NCBI GenBank assembly: GCA_036495095.1
Contig: DASXNK010000026.1
Location: 1-43,212 of the forward strand
Direction of reading: 5' to 3'
Source of the DNA: Candidatus Dormiibacterota bacterium
GTDB taxonomy: Bacteria; Chloroflexota; Dormibacteria; Aeolococcales; Aeolococcaceae
Length of the DNA: 43,212 nt
Below are positions 29,423-42,703 of this stretch, one piece after another. The notes beneath the pieces were generated by a model that saw nothing but the letters and a program-made list of their open reading frames with translations, was not told where the DNA came from and searched no databases. Numbering within the stretch: position 1 is the stretch's first letter; each line of letters starts with the position of its first letter. Both the position numbers and the translations under genes were made by a program.

Positions 29423-31123
29423 TCACGGCGCCGGCTGCGCGATCGACGGGACGACGAGCACCTGGCCAGGATGGATGAGAGAGGGGTTGGCGCCCACCTG
29501 TGGGTTGGCACGGTACAGCACCTGCCAGAGGTCGCCGTCACCGTACGTCCGCTGGGCGACGTGCCACAGCGAGTCGCCCGGGCGAACCGTGTAGGTCCCA
29601 CCTCCGATCACCTGAGGTGGTGGTGGCGGGGGAGCCGGCGCCGGCGGTGGCGCGCCCGGGGTGGTGACCACCGGCAGCGGCGTCGATCCCGGCGTCGCCG
29701 TCGCCGCGGAGGCGGTCCATCCGTTGGTCGCGCCGGCGAAGCTCTTGACCGGGAGCTTGAAGGTACCACTGCGCAGGTTCCTGGGCGACTGCTGCCAGGT
29801 GTTTCCCGCCACCACCTGGCGCTGGGTGACGCCGGGGTCCGCCGGGATCACCAGCCCGGACTCGTGCGGCAGGGTGGGGGCGGGAACGTGCACGCCGCCG
29901 GGTGACACCTCCCAGTCCGCCGGCCGCAGCCCGGCCAGGCCGGGGGTGCGGGAGCCCGCCACCAGCAGCCCGCGCGGACCTGGCTGTACGTCATAGGCCG
30001 GTCCGCCGGGTTTCAGAGTGACCTCCCCGGGGGTTCGGGCCGTGGCGACCAGCAGGCCGCTGGAGGTGGGGGAGAGGTCATACCCCGGGCCGCCCGGAGT
30101 GAGGCGGATGCTCGGTCCCGCGGTGACGGGGTCGGCTCCGCCGACGAGCTCGAGGGTGCGGCCGGGTGCGGGCACCTCGATCGACGGCCGAAGGCCCGTT
30201 GCCGGCGGGAACTCGGTGACCGTGGACCGGGTCGCACCGAAGCGGCCGGCGCCCCATTCGCCGAGCGCCGATGCTCCTCCAGAGATGGCTCCGCTCAGAC
30301 CGACATCGAGCAGGGTGTCCGGTCCCAGGGGCTTCCCCTCGAAGGCGAGAGCGCTGAGGTCGCTGCCGAACGCGGCCGAGGCGCCGGCGGTGCCGCTGAT
30401 CGCCCCGGCCGCCATGACCGGGTGCGCCTCCTGGAACGCCGAGAACCCCGGGATCCTGCCCGCGACGGGACCGGCGAGGATGAGCATGTCGGCGCCGAGC
30501 AGGGCGTGGGCGAGGTCGGCCGGGCCCCAGCCGTCCCAGAAGTCGAGATGGTTGGGGTTGTGGACCATCTTCTCGACGCCGGTGGCGACGAGGCTGATGC
30601 CGAAGTTGATCACCCACTTTCCGAAGGTGCCGCCGAGCACGGTCTCGAGGAACGCCACCAGTGCGCTCGCCTGTTCCACCTCCGCGGCCGCCGCTCCGGC
30701 GGCGGCGACGTCCGAGAAGCCCAGGGTGACGATGCTGAAGCCGATGCCGACGGCGGCGGTCACTCCCAGCGCCAGGTAGAGCTCGTGCAGCTGATCGTTG
30801 GTGCTCTTGATCTGGGCGGCGAGCTCGTCGAGCTGTCGGGCGACCGCCTCGCACTGGGCCGCGCTGTCTCCCAGCGAGGTGCCGAGGCGAGCGGCCCATC
30901 CCTGGAATGCGTCGCTCGCCCCGCCTGCCCAGGCGGCGCGCACCCCGTGCACCCGCTGCCCGAGGTCGCGCTCGGCGGCGCGCAGGTCACTCGCCACCGC
31001 TCTCCACGCGGCTGCCGCGTGCTGGAGGATCTCGGGGTGACCTCCGGGGTTCCAGAGGTTGAACTCCCGGTGGATCTTCGGGGCTGGCGGCGGGGGCGGG
31101 GGTGGGCTCGGTGGCGGGCTCAA
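29423..31123 (-). CDS. WXG-type type VII substrate with C-terminal LysM domain
   Basis: A 566-residue modular protein. Residues 1-14 are nearly all proline. Residues about 20-115 are a helical hairpin of the WXG100 type, with the turn motif W65-A-G67 in RAAWAGGASDAFQGWAARL. Hydrophobic Gly/Ala-rich segments follow (about 115-150, 170-183, 203-222, 236-255). Residues 337-395 hold two copies of a 29-30-residue repeat (LTPGGPGYDLSP..GLLVATARTPG and LKPGGPAYDVQP..GLLVAGSRTPG), with a partial third. After a proline linker, 510-560 form a LysM domain (TYTVRPGDSLWHVAQRTYGDGDLWQVLYRAN), which binds peptidoglycan glycans. It starts at a TTG, with AGGGG seven bases upstream. It sits between an EspC-like gene and the arrestin-like gene. 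No toxin domain is visible; a wall-bound T7 substrate is the best reading. Confidence 0.83.
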   Translation of the reverse strand: MSPPPSPPPPPPPAPKIHREFNLWNPGGHPEILQHAAAAWRAVASDLRAAERDLGQRVHGVRAAWAGGASDAFQGWAARLGTSLGDSAAQCEAVARQLDELAAQIKSTNDQLHELYLALGVTAAVGIGFSIVTLGFSDVAAAGAAAAEVEQASALVAFLETVLGGTFGKWVINFGISLVATGVEKMVHNPNHLDFWDGWGPADLAHALLGADMLILAGPVAGRIPGFSAFQEAHPVMAAGAISGTAGASAAFGSDLSALAFEGKPLGPDTLLDVGLSGAISGGASALGEWGAGRFGATRSTVTEFPPATGLRPSIEVPAPGRTLELVGGADPVTAGPSIRLTPGGPGYDLSPTSSGLLVATARTPGEVTLKPGGPAYDVQPGPRGLLVAGSRTPGLAGLRPADWEVSPGGVHVPAPTLPHESGLVIPADPGVTQRQVVAGNTWQQSPRNLRSGTFKLPVKSFAGATNGWTASAATATPGSTPLPVVTTPGAPPPAPAPPPPPPQVIGGGTYTVRPGDSLWHVAQRTYGDGDLWQVLYRANPQVGANPSLIHPGQVLVVPSIAQPAP

Positions 31124-31126
31124 CGG

Positions 31127-31435
31127 TCAGCCCCTGCCGACGCCGGAATGGTCGGCGCGCTCGTAGTTGGCTGCCCCCTGGCGGAGGTTGGTGGCGGCGT
31201 CCTGCAGCAGCGTCTCCAGCTGGGCGAGGCCGCTGAGCGCGCTGGTGACCGCCTGCTGGTACTGGTTGTACACCTCGTTCGAGGGGCCGACGACGCCGAA
31301 TGCCCTGTCGACCAGCCGGGCCGGACCGCCGAACCGGGCGGTGGACGAACGGACGGCCTCGGCCTGGGCTTCGAATCCGCCGGCCAGGCTGCGCAGCGCC
31401 GCGGGGTCGACGTGGAAGCCCGGATCAGTGGCCAT
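31127..31435 (-). CDS. EspC-like type VII secretion target
   Basis: A 102-residue helical protein of the ESX-1 EspC/DUF2580 type. It starts FHVDPAALRSLAGGFEAQAEAVRSS, continues with the FGVVGPSNEVYNQYQQAV turn, and the second helix ends in NYERADHSG, which contains the Y-x-x-x-D export signal of type VII substrates. It lacks a W-x-G turn, as EspC proteins do. The ATG at 31435 overlaps the end of the small membrane protein gene by 11 bases with no ribosome site, so translation is probably coupled. It is directly followed by the LysM-bearing protein, and EspC-like proteins are often partners of larger ESX substrates; pairing here is inferred from adjacency. Confidence 0.83.
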   Translation of the reverse strand: MATDPGFHVDPAALRSLAGGFEAQAEAVRSSTARFGGPARLVDRAFGVVGPSNEVYNQYQQAVTSALSGLAQLETLLQDAATNLRQGAANYERADHSGVGRG

Positions 31436-31631
31436 GGCTGAGCGCGGTCTGGACCACGCCTCCCACCGCCGTCCCCAGGGCGAGCACGGTGGCCACCCCC
31501 ACCCCGGCGACGAGGCGGGAGAGCGCCGGCGGGGCCATCGCCCGCGCCGCCTGCGAGCCCTCGCAGAGGGCTCCGAGGAGCCGGCGACGGCGCAACCGCC
31601 CGGCCTCGATGATGTCGTCGTCGCTCAGCAT
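31425..31631 (-). CDS. small single-pass membrane protein of the type VII locus
   Basis: A 68-residue protein. An acidic start (MLSDDDIIEAGRLRRRRLLGALCEG) leads through a basic stretch to one membrane helix (LVAGVGVATVLALGTAVGGVV) and ends SHGH. It starts right after the WXG100 gene at 31633 and overlaps the EspC-like gene by 11 bases, so it is part of the operon. I know no family for it. It might anchor or help export of neighbouring substrates, but nothing in the sequence shows this. The overlap and position within a tight operon are the main support for its reality. Confidence 0.68.
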   Translation of the reverse strand: MLSDDDIIEAGRLRRRRLLGALCEGSQAARAMAPPALSRLVAGVGVATVLALGTAVGGVVQTALSHGH

Positions 31632-31632
31632 C

Positions 31633-31929
31633 TCAGCCCCACATCGCGGCGTTGCTCGACTCGGCGAGCTGGTAGTTGTCGTTCGCGGTGCGCACCGCGC
31701 GGGCCATCTCCCGCAGCACCAGGTTGAGATCGCCGAGGGCGCCGTCCCAGCGCTGCTGCTTCGCCTGGTAGTCGGCGGAGGCGACGCCCTCCCAGCTGGC
31801 CACCAGCGGGGCGAGGTAGGCGCGGAGGTCGGCGAGCTGCTGGTCGATCTGGTTGGCGATGGCGTCGACGTCGGCCGCCGCCTCGGCGAGCGAGCCGAAG
31901 GTCACCAGGACGTGTCCCTGGTCGGGCAT
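31633..31929 (-). CDS. WXG100 family protein (EsxA/EsxB type)
   Basis: A 98-residue WXG100 protein, the size and shape of ESAT-6-like secreted substrates. Two helices are joined by the turn SWEGVASADY, carrying W-E-G. The second helix ends NYQLAE, matching the Y-x-x-x-E variant of the export signal. WXG100 proteins leave the cell as dimers through EccC. The start ATG at 31929 follows GGGAGAG by about six bases. The gene lies 22 bases after the other WXG100 gene, so the two probably form the heterodimer of this system. The C-terminal end is short (SSNAAMWG), as is common. Confidence 0.92.
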   Translation of the reverse strand: MPDQGHVLVTFGSLAEAAADVDAIANQIDQQLADLRAYLAPLVASWEGVASADYQAKQQRWDGALGDLNLVLREMARAVRTANDNYQLAESSNAAMWG

Positions 31930-31951
31930 GTCGTCTCTCCCTCAGAGGGCG

Positions 31952-32281
31952 TCAGCCGAGCCGGCCGGTGACCCCGGCGAAGCCCTGCTGGTTGTTCTCG
32001 TCGGCTCCCGCGTAGTTGCGGTGGGTCTGGAGCAGACCGTCACCGATCTCGCGGAGGACGGTGTTCAGCGCCGACGCGTCGTCGTGCCAGCGCTGCTTGA
32101 GGACCTGGAAGCTCCCCGCCGCGGCTCCCTGCCAGGTGCCGGCCAGCGGCTCGAGCCGCGCCAGGAGGGTGCTCAGCTGCCCCTGGATGGCGGCGTTCAC
32201 GTCGTGGACGTGGGTGGCCGCGACCTGCATGGTGGGGAGCTCGGTGCGGAAGCGCCCGCCTCCGCCGGTGCCCTGTGTCAT
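31952..32281 (-). CDS. WXG100 family protein, first gene of the operon
   Basis: A 109-residue WXG100 protein. The turn TWQGAAAGSF carries W-Q-G, and the second helix ends NYAGADE, which contains Y-x-x-x-D. The N-terminal 15 residues (TQGTGGGGRFRTELP) are a glycine-rich lead before helix one. The ATG at 32281 follows AGGAGG with about eight bases of spacing, the best ribosome site of the operon, which fits high expression of a secreted subunit. It is probably the dimer partner of the WXG100 protein at 31633. The longer frame to 32320 runs across this ribosome site and is rejected. Confidence 0.92.
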   Translation of the reverse strand: MTQGTGGGGRFRTELPTMQVAATHVHDVNAAIQGQLSTLLARLEPLAGTWQGAAAGSFQVLKQRWHDDASALNTVLREIGDGLLQTHRNYAGADENNQQGFAGVTGRLG

Positions 32282-32402
32282 TCGCCGTCCTCCTGGTGCG
32301 GGGCGGATCGCCCTTCCCAATGACGCCGGGAGGGCCGCCTTCCTACGGCCTCGGGGACGGCTTCGCGCGGTCTTAAGCGCTTCTTCGCCGGCGGGTGAGG
32401 CT

Positions 32403-33146: not shown

Positions 33147-33761
33147 ATGTCTGAGCGTCAAGCCACTCTGTCTCAACACCAAGATATGTTCCCAGGCCCG
33201 GCGGCGACCTGCTGCGTGCCCGGCGAGGACCACGTCGCCCGGGTCCGCGCCCAGTGGGCGCGCGAGGCGCCCGGGCTCGACACCTCACCGATGGCGGTGG
33301 TGGCCCGGGTCGGCCGTGCCCATGCCTACATGGACCACGCGCTGGAGGCGACGTTCGCCCGCCACGGGCTCACCCGCGGCACCTGGGACGTGCTCGCCGC
33401 GCTGCGCCGCCAGGGTGCGCCCCACCGGCTGTCGCCGACCGAGCTGTACCGGCAGCTGATGCGCACCTCGGGTGCGATGACCCACCGCCTCGCGCAGCTG
33501 GAGCGGGCCGAGCTGATCCGGCGCGTTCCCGACCCCGACGACGGCCGCGGCCTGCTGGTCGCGCTCACCCGCCGGGGTCGCACCCTGGTCGAGTCGGTGG
33601 GGCCGGCCCACATGGCCAACGAGCGCGCGCTGCTGCGGGGGCTCACCACCGACGAGCAGGAGCAGCTGGCCGGGCTGCTCGGCAAGCTGCTGCGCAGCCT
33701 CGAGCTGGAGCGGCCCACGCCGCCGCCGCGGAGCCCCGGTGGAGGCTCCGACCCGGAGTGA
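33147..33761 (+). CDS. MarR-family transcriptional regulator
   Basis: A 204-residue winged-helix regulator of the MarR type. The DNA-binding core is clear: HGLTRGTWDVLAALRRQG, RLSPTELYRQLMRTSGAMTHRLAQLERAELIRRVPDPDDGRGLLVALTRRGRTLVE, which holds the recognition helix and the wing with the D-x-R-G-x-x-V-x-L-T signature. About 45 extra residues precede the core, including a CC pair (TCCVPGED); these could be redox-sensitive, but that is unproven. The ATG at 33147 has no ribosome site; TACGCT lies at 33132-33137, so the leader is only a few bases long. It is divergent from the isochorismatase-fold gene and probably controls both. Confidence 0.9.
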   Translation: MSERQATLSQHQDMFPGPAATCCVPGEDHVARVRAQWAREAPGLDTSPMAVVARVGRAHAYMDHALEATFARHGLTRGTWDVLAALRRQGAPHRLSPTELYRQLMRTSGAMTHRLAQLERAELIRRVPDPDDGRGLLVALTRRGRTLVESVGPAHMANERALLRGLTTDEQEQLAGLLGKLLRSLELERPTPPPRSPGGGSDPE

Positions 33762-34086: not shown

Positions 34087-34347
34087 CTCATCCGCTCCTC
34101 GAAGCCCGGCCCGGAGGCGCCACCGGCGCCGCGGTGGGTGCCACCGTAGCCAGCCGCCGGGTCCCGCCGGATCGTCCGCGGCGCACAACGGGCCGTGCCG
34201 GCGGCATGTCGGTCGGGGGCGCGGCGCTGCCTCATCGCTGTCCGGGCCGCCGCGTTCGTCCCGTGCACCGGCGAGGCGCCGCCGTCACATCGGTGAACGG
34301 CGGATGACGCCCTCTTCACGCGGCTTTCGACGCGTTCGCGCAGCTTG

Positions 34348-34353
34348 TAGGCT
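34348..34353 (+). promoter_or_regulatory. candidate -10 of the riboswitch transcript
   Basis: TAGGCT stands 12 bases before the first aptamer bases. A weak -35, TTTCGA, lies 17 bases upstream at 34325-34330. Transcription would begin near 34360. The remaining stretch 34087-34347 shows no gene or clear site. Confidence 0.35.
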
Positions 34354-34365
34354 GCTCAGGTCGGC

Positions 34366-34443
34366 TTCAGGACAAGGGCAAAGCCTCCGCGAGGAGGTGA
34401 CGCAAAGCCACGGGTCTCACCGAGACAGCCGGGCCACCGAATG
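34366..34443 (+). promoter_or_regulatory. cyclic-di-GMP class I (GEMM) riboswitch aptamer
   Basis: The leader contains the conserved GEMM pieces in order: AGGGCAAA (34376-34382), a hairpin CCTCC-GCGA-GGAGG with a GNRA tetraloop (34384-34397), the GACGCAAAGCC core (34399-34409), a second hairpin GTCTC-ACC-GAGAC (34414-34426), then AGCCGGGCCACCGA (34427-34440). The GACGCAAAGCC string is the same as in the Vc2 c-di-GMP riboswitch. The second hairpin is shorter than in Vc2. The class I fold binds c-di-GMP, while some variants bind cyclic AMP-GMP, and I cannot tell which from sequence. It precedes the sortase-like gene by about 40 bases. Confidence 0.85.
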
Positions 34444-34461
34444 AGGTCATTGCGGGGCCGA

Positions 34462-34479
34462 CAGCACCAGGAGATGCTG
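34462..34479 (+). promoter_or_regulatory. possible Shine-Dalgarno-sequestering hairpin
   Basis: CAGCA (34462-34466) and TGCTG (34475-34479) can pair, leaving the ribosome site AGGAG (34469-34473) in the loop, seven to eight bases before the GTG at 34482. GCCGAC (34458-34463) can also pair with GTCGGC (34361-34366) ahead of the aptamer, so folding of the riboswitch could decide which pairing forms. This suggests translational control. Confidence 0.4.
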
Positions 34480-34481
34480 CC

Positions 34482-35255
34482 GTGCCGCCGTCGATGTCCG
34501 CGCGCTCCGAGGAAGGCACGCACACTCCCCGCAGGGGTCTCGGCGCCGGCCTCGCCACCGCCGCCGCCACCGTCGCCGTGGTGACCGCCTCCCTCGCCGG
34601 TGCCGGGCCCGGCGCCACCGCCCGCCACCTGGTCGCCTCGCTCCCCGCCGCCGCGCTGGTGTCCCCTGATGCCCGCGCCGCGATGGCGGGGGAGCCGGTC
34701 GCGCCGGCTCCGACAGCCACCCCCGAGCCCGCCGCCGCGGCCGTCACCGCCGCCGCCCCGGCGGCCGCGACGGCACCGAGCGTGGCCGTCGAGGCGCTGG
34801 CCGCCTCGCGTCCCGCGCCGGTCCCGCTGTCGGCCGCCTCCGAGGTGCCGGTCAGCACGCCGCCGCCGGCGCCGCAGCTGCTCAACATGCTGGTCAGCGA
34901 CGACGGCAGCCTGCGCACCGCGGTCGGCACCTACTCCGACTGCAGCGGCCGCACCCCGCTGACCCACGCCGTCGCCGCCATCGACACCTGCGTCGGCGGA
35001 CCCACCTACTTCGTGGGCCACAACCCCGGCGTCTTCACCCCGCTGATGAGCATGAGCACCGGCGACGTGATCACCTGGTACGACCGCGGCGGCGCCGCCC
35101 ACCGGATGCGGATCGTGAGCATCCGTGACGGCTGGGCCTCGGCCAACGGCGCGCCGGCGGCGACCCAGAGGGACGTCGTCGCCCAGCTCCAGACCTGCGA
35201 GACCTACTCGCCGACCGGCGCCTACGACCGCATCGTCGACCTGGTCGCCGCCTGA
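34482..35255 (+). CDS. sortase-like cysteine transpeptidase family protein
   Basis: A 257-residue protein with an N-terminal hydrophobic segment (LGAGLATAAATVAVVTASLAGAG) that is an anchor or signal, an Ala/Pro-rich spacer of about 80 residues, and a C-terminal sortase-type barrel from about 130. The histidine motif is FVGHNPGVFTPL (H180), the cysteine motif is QLQTC (C239, equivalent to T-L-x-T-C), and R250 in YDRIV follows at the distance expected for the catalytic arginine. GDVITWYDRGG is the usual strand between. Such enzymes join LPXTG-like proteins to the wall. The GTG at 34482 has AGGAGA seven bases upstream, downstream of a c-di-GMP riboswitch. The partner substrate might be the glycine-rich protein at 12111, which is not linked. 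Confidence 0.82.
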   Translation: MPPSMSARSEEGTHTPRRGLGAGLATAAATVAVVTASLAGAGPGATARHLVASLPAAALVSPDARAAMAGEPVAPAPTATPEPAAAAVTAAAPAAATAPSVAVEALAASRPAPVPLSAASEVPVSTPPPAPQLLNMLVSDDGSLRTAVGTYSDCSGRTPLTHAVAAIDTCVGGPTYFVGHNPGVFTPLMSMSTGDVITWYDRGGAAHRMRIVSIRDGWASANGAPAATQRDVVAQLQTCETYSPTGAYDRIVDLVAA

Positions 35256-39909: not shown

Positions 39910-40428
39910 TCAGGGCTGGAGGACGGGCTGAACGCTCGAGGCGGTGAACGTGAAGGTGCGGGTCAGCGGCGGAGCCAGCCCCCTGGCGCCGTACGTCACC
40001 GTCACCGTCACCGCGGTCGGCGCCGCCAGTGACGGGGTGGCGTCGATGGTGACGCTCGCCTTGCCCGCCGGCGTCCCCGCCAGGTCCTGGAGGTGGGTCG
40101 TGCTGCTCGTGGTGCAGAGCAGGGCCGGGTCGACCGAGAGCTGCGGGGCGGCCCGGCCCACCGCGGCGGCGACGGTGCCGGGCGCGCCCGACTCGCAGTA
40201 CTTCCCGGCGACCAGCGGGTCGGCCACGTAGAGCGAGGTGGCGATCGACGCCACCCGGGCACCGCCGCGGGCGCCGTCGCTCACCGCCTCGTTCTGGAAG
40301 AAGAGCCAGCTGCCGCTGAGGATCCCGAACACCACGACGAGGGCGATCGGGCAGACGATGGCGAACTCCACCAGCGACTGCCCGGCCGCCGCCCTCCGCC
40401 GCGATCGCCGCTCGGTCCGGGTGCGCAT
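39910..40428 (-). CDS. TadE-like pilus assembly protein, third gene of operon
   Basis: A 172-residue minor-pilin-like protein. After a basic start (RTRTERRSRRRAAA) comes GQSLVEFAIVCPIALVVVFGILSGSWLFFQNEAV, the TadE signature with the conserved glutamate at position five of the hydrophobic helix, as in prepilin-like proteins cleaved before it. The rest is a secreted beta-rich domain with two cysteines (KYCESG and LLCTTS). It overlaps the TadG-like gene by ATGA, so translation is coupled. TadE-like proteins support type IVc (Flp/Tad) pili; the TadA ATPase and Flp pilin genes are not in the window. Confidence 0.87.
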   Translation of the reverse strand: MRTRTERRSRRRAAAGQSLVEFAIVCPIALVVVFGILSGSWLFFQNEAVSDGARGGARVASIATSLYVADPLVAGKYCESGAPGTVAAAVGRAAPQLSVDPALLCTTSSTTHLQDLAGTPAGKASVTIDATPSLAAPTAVTVTVTYGARGLAPPLTRTFTFTASSVQPVLQP

Positions 40429-42245
40429 CAGCCGATGATGGTCCCGCTCAGCGAGCTGAGCCCGGGGAGCGTGTAGGGGGCACCGTTGACGGTGATCGTC
40501 GAGTTGCCGTCGGTGACGAAGTCGTCGACGATGCAGGTGCCGTTGATGGTGACCGAGCCGCTCGAGGCGGTCTGGCTGGTGCCGGTTCCCATGCCGGTCT
40601 GGACGATGCCGCCCGGATAGTAGATCGTGCCCACGTCCCAGTACTCCTGGGGCAGGCCGCTGCCGTAGTTGGACAGCGAGTTGTTGTACACGGTGCCGTT
40701 GACGGTGATCGCCGCGCTGTCGCCGGCCTCGGCGTTGAAGCCGAAGTTGCCCGGGGTGCCGCGCGCCTGGAAGAACGCCATCCCGTTGTACATGCCGTAG
40801 GAGGGGGCGGTGAGGGTGACCGTGCCGGCGCCGCCGACGAGCATCGAGAAGTTGGTGCCCGTGCCCCAGTAGCCGTCGGGATTGAAGCTCCTCTGGTTCT
40901 TGGACACGACCCCGTAGAGCTGGTTGCCCGTGCCCGCGCACACCGGGCTGGTGCCGTTGACGTCGGCCGAGCCGGAGGGGAAGCAGGGGGCGCCGTTCCC
41001 GGTTCCGGTGGCGCTGAACACGCCGCCGGTCACCGAGCCGGGGACGTTGCCCGCCATCGGGTACGGGCTGCCGGTGGCGATGAGGATGTTGTATCCCTGC
41101 ACGGCGTTGCCCGCCGTGGGGGCGACGTCCAGCCCCCTGGTGAAGCGGAACACGCCCGGGTATCCGCCCGAGCTGGGGTCGAGGACGCCGCTGCAGTCGG
41201 CGAGGCTGGCCGACCCGGTGAGCTTCACCGGGAAGTTGTAGACCCCGGGCTGGAGCGCACCGTTCGCGGTTGCCTGTGCGATGGTCGTGTACACCGGCGC
41301 CGCAGCCTGCCCGGGGCAGAGGGCGACACCGGTATTGGTGATCGGATCGGTGATCGCGCTGCCCACCGGGTCGTTGACCTGGGCCTGGTTGACCACGTAG
41401 TGCTCGTAGGAGAGCCGGACGTTGCCCACCGAGCACGCGGGCCTGTTCCAGGGGCCCTGGGTGGCCTCGTTCCAGGTGTTGGGCCTGGCCACGTTGGCGG
41501 GCACGCTGCTGGTGCCGAAGCACCAGTCGAAGGGCATCCCGGTGACGCTGATCAGGTTGCCGTAGACCGACAGGTTGCTGTTGTCCTTGGCGTCGATGAC
41601 GTCGGTGTAGCTGTATCCGCCCGCCTGGGTCGAGGTCCACGGATTGTTGGGCACGGCGCTGTTCGCGAAGATGTCGCCGTGGACGCTGAAGGTGCCCTGG
41701 CCGTTGCCGAGGATGCTGTGCGGCCCCACCTTGTCGAGGGCGACGATGCCGACGTTCTTGCCGGGCTGCACGCCGTTGAGGGCCTTGGCGCTGGCCCTGG
41801 TGCTCAGCGTGTTGAACCCGAGGACCTGGGCGATGTAGGGCATCCAGGTGCTGTTGAGCTGCACCGAGACCCCGCAGGCGTAGGGCGGTGGGAAGCTGCC
41901 CGCAGAGGTGCTGATCGCCGCGCCGCGGTCGTTGCCCGCCTGGTCGACGTAGTCGGCGGTCCAGCTGGCGCCGATGGTGTTCGCGTTCTGGTCGATGATG
42001 TCCTGGATCACCGCATGGACATGCTGGTCGGTGGGCGGCGACGCTCCCTGCTCGCAGAGCGACTTGAGCGCGGCGGTGCCGGCGATGCTGGCGAAGTCGG
42101 CCGCGTTCTGCGCCCGCCGCGCCTGCACCAGGGCGTAGCCGCCGTCGATGGCCACCGCCATCATCCCGAGCAGCACGATGAGCGCGAGCGAGAAGATGAT
42201 CATCACCTGGCCGTGCTCGCCGCGCCGCCGCCGTGCGCACCTCAT
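40428..42245 (-). CDS. TadG-like protein with large secreted domain
   Basis: A 605-residue protein. The N-terminus GQVMIIFSLALIVLLGMMAVAIDGGYALVQARRAQNAADFASIAGTAAL is the TadG-like (PF13400-type) anchor, where the ADFA/AA pattern follows the membrane helix. The other 550 residues are secreted, rich in Asn, Gly, Ser, Thr and aromatic residues, with short V-N-G-T-x-type repeats (TINGTCIVDD, TVNGTVYNNS, TVNGAPYTL) that look like a beta-helix or polymer-like domain, and a few cysteines. No adhesin domain is named. It overlaps both neighbours by ATGA. The size is larger than many TadG proteins, so the secreted part probably gives the specificity of attachment. Confidence 0.85.
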   Translation of the reverse strand: MRCARRRRGEHGQVMIIFSLALIVLLGMMAVAIDGGYALVQARRAQNAADFASIAGTAALKSLCEQGASPPTDQHVHAVIQDIIDQNANTIGASWTADYVDQAGNDRGAAISTSAGSFPPPYACGVSVQLNSTWMPYIAQVLGFNTLSTRASAKALNGVQPGKNVGIVALDKVGPHSILGNGQGTFSVHGDIFANSAVPNNPWTSTQAGGYSYTDVIDAKDNSNLSVYGNLISVTGMPFDWCFGTSSVPANVARPNTWNEATQGPWNRPACSVGNVRLSYEHYVVNQAQVNDPVGSAITDPITNTGVALCPGQAAAPVYTTIAQATANGALQPGVYNFPVKLTGSASLADCSGVLDPSSGGYPGVFRFTRGLDVAPTAGNAVQGYNILIATGSPYPMAGNVPGSVTGGVFSATGTGNGAPCFPSGSADVNGTSPVCAGTGNQLYGVVSKNQRSFNPDGYWGTGTNFSMLVGGAGTVTLTAPSYGMYNGMAFFQARGTPGNFGFNAEAGDSAAITVNGTVYNNSLSNYGSGLPQEYWDVGTIYYPGGIVQTGMGTGTSQTASSGSVTINGTCIVDDFVTDGNSTITVNGAPYTLPGLSSLSGTIIG

Positions 42246-42703
42246 GGGGCCACCCCCGCCTGGGCGGTGACGGTGAATCCGGAGAGCAGAGGCACCCCGG
42301 AGATGATCTTCGACTGCACCGTGACCACCTCCATCGCAACGCTGGTCCGCGACCCCGGGAGGGCGTGGCGCAGCGCCACGCAGGCCGAGGCGCAGCTGGT
42401 TCCGTAGGTGACGTTGGCGAACGCGATCGAGCCCTGCTCGGCGTTCACGGCGTTGGTGACGTCGGTCTTCTCCTGGGCGAGCAGGATCCCCTTGCGCACG
42501 TCGTTGGCCGCGGTGACCGCACCCGCCCGGGCGGCGCCGTTGAGGGCGATGACGGTGTGCAGTGCCTGCCAGCCCACGTAGGCGAGCGCGAGCAGCAGGA
42601 TCAGCACCGGCATGGAGACGGCGAACTCCACCAGGCTCTGCCCGCCCGCCTCGCGGCGTCGCCGGGTCCACGGACGGGAACGACCAGGCAGGTTGCGCAC
42701 CAT
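42242..42703 (-). CDS. TadE-like pilus assembly protein, first gene of operon
   Basis: A 153-residue TadE-like protein. After a basic head (RRRREAGG) comes QSLVEFAVSMPVLILLLALAYVGWQALHTVIALNGAARAGAV, the TadE hydrophobic helix with the conserved glutamate. A pair of close cysteines, SCASACVA, lies in the secreted part. The start is not certain: ATG 42703, GTG 42706 and GTG 42697 are near each other and the only ribosome-like site is GGGG. It is the first of three genes with four-base overlaps. Confidence 0.85.
   Translation of the reverse strand: MVRNLPGRSRPWTRRRREAGGQSLVEFAVSMPVLILLLALAYVGWQALHTVIALNGAARAGAVTAANDVRKGILLAQEKTDVTNAVNAEQGSIAFANVTYGTSCASACVALRHALPGSRTSVAMEVVTVQSKIISGVPLLSGFTVTAQAGVAP

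Follow-up and report, generated by a model that had tools for sequence, protein, structure and literature searches.

The window, the 43-kb stretch of DNA that was analysed, is contig C26 of genome G000 (4.38 Mb, 96.6% complete). On its plus strand it carries a c-di-GMP class I (GEMM-I) riboswitch aptamer (34368-34442), and about 40 nt downstream of the aptamer end begins a gene encoding a sortase-like protein of 257 amino acids (34482-35255, plus strand). The reading frame starts with GTG and is preceded at a spacing of 8 nt by the Shine-Dalgarno sequence AGGAG (34469-34473). The upstream neighbour, a MarR-like gene as judged by eye, lies on the same strand and ends at 33761, and the downstream neighbour is an SDR gene on the opposite strand; the riboswitch gene therefore stands alone.

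Aptamer and ligand-position bases

Scanning the whole window with cmscan yielded a single Rfam match at gathering level, RF03167 (c-di-GMP-I-GGC) at 34368-34442 on the plus strand, which covers the full model (positions 1-80) with 60.8 bits against a cut-off of 59 (E = 4.6e-12). When the genome itself was searched, RF01051 matched the same nucleotides with 63.6 bits against a cut-off of 35 (model positions 1-87). The initial annotation had described a near-complete GEMM-I core in the leader and proposed an Infernal search with the Rfam GEMM models; the gathering-level matches to both models confirm this core and identify a complete class I aptamer whose only flaw is a weak P1, visible as mismatches in the covariance-model alignment. 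P1 contains non-standard pairs in the RF03167 alignment, and an alternative P1 of UUC/GAA with a bulge is possible. The loop of P2 is a GNRA tetraloop (GCGA). An aptamer arising by chance was ruled out by the E-value and by the six further copies in the genome.

Covariance-model alignment and Vc2 numbering place G34377 at the position of G20 of Vc2, and A34404 and C34437 at the positions which in the known Vc2 structure are those of A47 and C92. As all three ligand positions are canonical, c-di-GMP rather than cGAMP is the ligand expected from the sequence. That the aptamer senses a different cyclic dinucleotide, either 3',3'-cGAMP or the ligand of the GGC-variant class, is suggested by the GGC model being placed first by E-value in the Rfam scan, but we consider it very improbable on several grounds: RF01051 outscores RF03167 in bits, the position equivalent to A47 is an A in the window (GACGCAAAGC) and a G in the GGC consensus (GACGCGAAGC), and the residue equivalent to G20 is a G, whereas cGAMP binding follows the exchange G20A, which turns class I RNAs to this ligand (PMC6274999). 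G20 has been characterized as a selectivity factor and not as a hard filter (PMC9262584). The A at the A47-equivalent position is shared by the window and the other 15 leaders of alignment A5 (16 leaders), and together with the higher RF01051 score it led us to reject the GGC variant as the true class. c-di-GMP is thus retained as the expected ligand in what follows.

Leader architecture and direction of the switch

Sequence reading suggests a -10-like element (TAGGCT, 34348-34353, plus strand) and, separated from it by a 16-nt spacer, a possible -35 element (TTCGAC, 34326-34331, plus strand); TAxxxT is found in the matching position in most other leaders of the genome. Transcription is predicted to start at about 34358-34360, at the 5' arm of the leader. 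Further upstream, some 40-110 nt before the aptamers (e.g. at 34270-34300 in the window and at L009, L010 and L046), the 5-mer GTCAC/GTGAC accompanies 23 of 27 aptamers versus 7.8 expected from random stretches of the same loci, possibly as a shared transcription-factor site or as a general promoter feature.

The leader can form an extra helix, P0, in which the 5' arm GTCGGCTTC (34360-34368) pairs over 9 bp with the 3' arm GGGGCCGAC (34454-34462), both on the plus strand. P0 is present in 14 of the 16 leaders examined, the GTCGG of its 5' arm shows no variation across the 16 leaders of alignment A5 (L049, a CAP-gene leader, has GTCGA), and a compensatory double change from C-G to T-A occurs in the leaders L001 (identical to L008) and L043. 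The mean P0 helix score of 17.0 exceeded all 300 shuffled means (mean 14.7, sd 0.6) in a test that clipped some arms and is hence conservative, and most single leaders are not significant on their own. Next to P0, sequence reading reveals a hairpin, CAGCA-CCAGGAGA-TGCTG (34462-34479, plus strand), which holds the Shine-Dalgarno sequence in its loop and has equivalents in paralogous leaders (CAGCAC..GTGCTG and GACAGC..GCTGTC). The 3' arm of P0 overlaps a second hairpin that covers the Shine-Dalgarno sequence and frequently the start codon as well (L012, L010 and L060, with GGGGCC...ATGGCCCC), and in several sister leaders it can pair instead over the start codon (GGGGCC/GGCCCC). By eye, no terminator-like U run was seen, and control is therefore likely to be translational. 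Compared with Vc2 of V. cholerae (GEMM-I, RF01051), the window leader has in common the complete aptamer, the GNRA loop of P2, the canonical bases at 20, 47 and 92 and a surface-related target gene; it differs by the extra helix P0, the hairpin in the start region, the weak P1 and the sortase fold of the target.

Free-energy models without ligand put the P0 state on average about 5.6 kcal/mol above the non-P0 state in energy. Forcing P0 raised the accessibility of the ribosome site slightly, from 0.39 to 0.47, and enforcing the aptamer core hardly altered it. Because these folding energies are undecisive and Vc2 is an OFF switch, we infer a translational ON switch with only a slight preference over OFF. 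In such an ON switch, the leader (34360-34481) would act as a translational class I c-di-GMP riboswitch with a single target gene: c-di-GMP raised by GGDEF enzymes would stabilize the aptamer helix P1, the ligand-fixed P1 would break a 5' hairpin GUCGG/CYGAC, the freed GUCGG arm would pair with GCCGAC to form P0, and the GCCGAC strand could then no longer close the start region, which would open so that translation rises. In the opposite arrangement, ligand-bound P1 would take the 5' arm and the free GGGGCCGAC strand would close the start region; the sortase-like protein would then be made at low c-di-GMP, in motile or dispersing cells, perhaps for the processing or release of surface proteins. 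This OFF switch is somewhat less probable, yet it has precedents in Vc2, the best-studied GEMM-I RNA, which switches translation OFF and depends critically on how stable P1 is (PMC9262584), and in the repression via a class I riboswitch of the C. difficile protease that frees sortase-anchored proteins (PMC5270738). It would also agree with the CUCC common to P1 and extended P0 in many leaders, owing to which P1 and a long P0 compete. P1 is, however, compatible with a 6-bp core of P0, and the competition of the alternative hairpin GUCGG/CYGAC with P1 in several ligand-free folds suits an ON switch better. A Tad pilus, usually a sessile-state system, is moreover co-regulated in this genome (see below), which again speaks against OFF.

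A divergent protein with a predicted sortase fold

The encoded protein comprises a hydrophobic N-terminus, an Ala/Pro/Thr-rich linker (residues ~65-133) and a sortase-fold domain of about 125 residues (~134-257), with His180, Cys239 and Arg250 as key residues and a conserved pair Cys154/Cys170. Its designation as sortase-like had been based on the His, Cys and Arg pattern, and these three residues are indeed present and invariant in the seven paralogues of the genome. The proposed sortase profile search gave a match to PF04203 (Sortase) with E = 8.7e-5, whose 22.7 bits lie under the curated cut-off of 26.6. All four riboswitch-linked paralogues match this profile at E < 1, those in the whole-genome search under the cut-off, and an NCBIfam search returned no meaningful name. 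An AlphaFold (AF2) model built with 12 relatives reached a pLDDT of 85.2 and a pTM of 0.80. Foldseek against the PDB gave 86 matches with E <= 0.001, the best 50 of which are all sortases A, C or D; among the matches listed, the best E was 2.7e-6 with a probability of 1.00, and query TM-scores ranged from 0.53 to 0.66. As a sequence-only search of the PDB with the family profile found no sortase, assignment to the sortase fold is based on the AF2 model and the weak Pfam match. The sortase identity thus held at the level of the predicted fold and fell short of the family cut-off, and we refer to the window protein as a predicted divergent, secreted protein of sortase fold.

With sortases A, C and D (PF04203) the window family shares the predicted beta-barrel and the order of His, Cys and Arg. 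It differs from them in having HN for GHxT and QTC for TLxTC, in its score under the Pfam cut-off, in the Cys154/Cys170 pair and the long Pro/Ala/Thr-rich linker, in an Arg that is not universal and in the presence of several paralogues per genome. Arg250 is replaced in L046/L069, L072, L074 and L075, which include the riboswitch-linked copy of genome G010, and in the f3 group an Arg is found two residues earlier (SRDFIV). This loss, the PF04203 score and a genome without Gram_pos_anchor substrates would fit a sortase-fold relic or binding domain devoid of transpeptidase activity, such as a c-di-GMP-controlled adhesin or stalk cap. We regard such an inactive protein as unlikely, since His180 and Cys239 are invariant in every aligned relative, down to 48% identity, and the Arg is kept throughout the seven genome paralogues and in a distant riboswitch-linked family (SWGRLF). 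An active enzyme of this family would span the envelope on its Pro-rich stalk, membrane-tethered and secreted, and would use a Cys-His(-Arg) mechanism to act on proteins of the surface or of pili that lack classical LPXTG signals. In genome G010, a gene for a canonical-looking sortase (LTLITC; L046:549-1262, minus strand) adjoins the riboswitch-controlled sortase-like gene in divergent orientation.

The search of genome G000 for Gram_pos_anchor (PF00746) gave no match, with positive controls in B. subtilis and L. lactis, and LPXTG substrates were rejected on this basis (other signal types are possible). Nine canonical sortases that exceed the Pfam cut-off are also encoded in the genome. Because no Gram_pos_anchor protein was found despite these nine sortases, the link to wall anchoring drawn in the initial annotation is not supported, and the score below the Pfam sortase cut-off and the missing Arg in several relatives likewise count against it.

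Recurrence of the riboswitch and of its target class

The genome contains seven c-di-GMP-I aptamers (own-genome covariance search) and 23 GGDEF domains, which, judged from their sequence, can supply c-di-GMP. Four of the seven aptamers (window, L009, L012 and L013) sit 37-42 nt before paralogues of the window protein with 51-53% identity along the entire sequence (63-67% in the core); the copy at L009 is flanked by two GGDEF-EAL proteins. Since paralogous leaders share descent, these are not four independent observations. Further aptamers stand directly before a TadE-TadE-TadG operon (L010:494-3518, plus strand; Pfam), before a gene for a 92-aa stand-alone sigma-70 region 4 protein, possibly a second tier of control (L008:1029-1304, plus strand), and before a gene without a named family (L011). 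The seven copies would form a regulon in which four drive sortase-like paralogues and one a Tad/Flp-pilus operon. The initial annotation had mentioned neither the four-fold paralogous repetition nor the Tad-pilus operon with its riboswitch of this class, nor that the pairing returns in a distant branch of the phylum (described below). At L011:12645-12726 (plus strand), Rfam reports Ms_AS-4 above its cut-off, an sRNA family described from Actinobacteria.

The aptamer occurs in 16 of the 110 genomes of the class, and the three genomes of this genus together hold 19 of its copies. Aptamers before the same sortase-like family were found in sister genomes and relatives (L046, L060, L061 and L062), namely in the sister genomes G001 and G002 and in G010 of another genus, and also in the soil Chloroflexi MAGs CF_96, CF_93, CF_134 and RYN_343, the nearest named records, which are assigned to Chloroflexota and mark the host as part of a soil MAG lineage. 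Other genes behind aptamers encode a TadE-like protein (L063, genome G002; by eye), GH5 cellulase-like proteins (L047 and L051), CAP-domain proteins (L048 and L049), a pectate-lyase-like protein (L050) and, below cut-off, a WxL-like protein (L059) and a possible response regulator (L058). At L057 (genome G001), an aptamer whose leader is of the sortase type precedes a reading frame that is broken or very short, possibly a decayed sortase-like copy.

The window sortase-like family has seven members in genome G000, occurs in 28 of the 110 genomes of the class and is scarcely found outside it. No aptamer at gathering level precedes the paralogues L032, L033 and L034, and the close paralogue L029 (contig C17) is likewise without aptamer. 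The protein tree needs 3 changes to explain the aptamer label, compared with 8.1 on average for shuffled labels, and this together with L029 fits duplication of leader and gene as a unit, with losses. The copy of genome G104 (family f4) is near-identical to the G002 copy, and its contig may have been misplaced.

Among 400 Chloroflexota genomes drawn, 89 carry a c-di-GMP-I aptamer. Applied to the fetched loci, the window-family profile gave weak matches directly behind aptamers in the distant family f8 and in one f40 genome. The proteins of this second family (A6) share the motifs LLAHN-LAG ... QTCI ... SWGRLF and match PF04203 with E-values of 2.3e-6 to 0.009 and up to 27.8 bits, one of them over the cut-off; profile-profile comparison with the window family (hhalign) gave a probability of 83% and E = 9e-6, and brought the His and Cys motifs of the two families into register. 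A census identified A6 in 17 genomes, and Rfam places c-di-GMP-I aptamers immediately before the gene at 13 of the 19 loci checked, namely at 12 of the 15 f8 genes of full length and at one f40 gene; at 10 of these 13 loci they are in tandem. At L151-L161 (family f8), the tandem aptamers lie about 170 nt apart before the A6 genes, a two-sensor arrangement. Both families are small secreted sortase-like proteins encoded directly behind c-di-GMP-I aptamers; A6 belongs to a distant Chloroflexota branch and differs by its mostly tandem aptamers, the lack of a Pro-rich linker and a longer stretch between the His and Cys motifs. The recurrence of the pairing with A6 is the best evidence that it is functional and no accident of paralogy. 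Taken as a whole, a translational c-di-GMP riboswitch (ON), a sortase-fold envelope protein and a regulon of seven form the explanation that we consider probable.

Sortases are usually taken as housekeeping enzymes or are co-transcribed with their pilins, and to our knowledge surface anchoring is scarcely known in Chloroflexota. Full-text literature searching, of incomplete coverage, found no riboswitch-controlled sortase, in keeping with the rarity that had been surmised. GEMM regulons are rich in genes of unknown function (PMC3766115). In C. difficile, class II c-di-GMP riboswitches raise the sortase substrates CD2831 and CD3246, and a class I riboswitch additionally lowers Zmp1/PPEP-1, the protease that releases sortase substrates; riboswitch control of the sortase gene is not described in the consulted portions of these reports (PMC6200980, PMC5270738). 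Common to both systems are c-di-GMP riboswitches on sortase-linked surface biology. In C. difficile the substrates and the protease are controlled, whereas here, in Chloroflexota, a class I RNA precedes the sortase-like protein itself and no sorting-signal substrate was found in the genome. What is new is the target, an unusual class that recurs behind an otherwise ordinary aptamer; the surface enzyme itself, beyond its cargo, appears to be under direct c-di-GMP control. We also entertain, as a speculative and rather doubtful extension, a distinct, c-di-GMP-dedicated group of stand-alone sortase-fold enzymes (HN...QTC) that spans Chloroflexota, came under the riboswitch on two or more occasions and processes or cross-links surface polymers of a non-LPXTG kind, for instance the co-regulated Tad/Flp pilus. 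If this were true, c-di-GMP would set the surface architecture via the enzyme rather than the cargo. A sortase-fold protein that is itself a repeated riboswitch target, with four cases in one genome and others in a distant branch, would tie the sessile/motile messenger to the envelope chemistry of Chloroflexota, and the predicted c-di-GMP regulon of these uncultured soil bacteria would comprise sortase-like, Tad-pilus, CAP, GH5, WxL-like and pectate-lyase-like genes.

Two further features of the window were noted. The C-terminal part of a reading frame at 39910-42339 (minus strand) is TadE/TadG-like (GQSLVEFAIVCPIALVVVFG); it lies near the riboswitch and is not under its control. At 29423-32320 (minus strand), a cluster encodes WXG100/PPE-like proteins, one with a LysM domain, which are possible type VII secretion substrates outside Actinobacteria.
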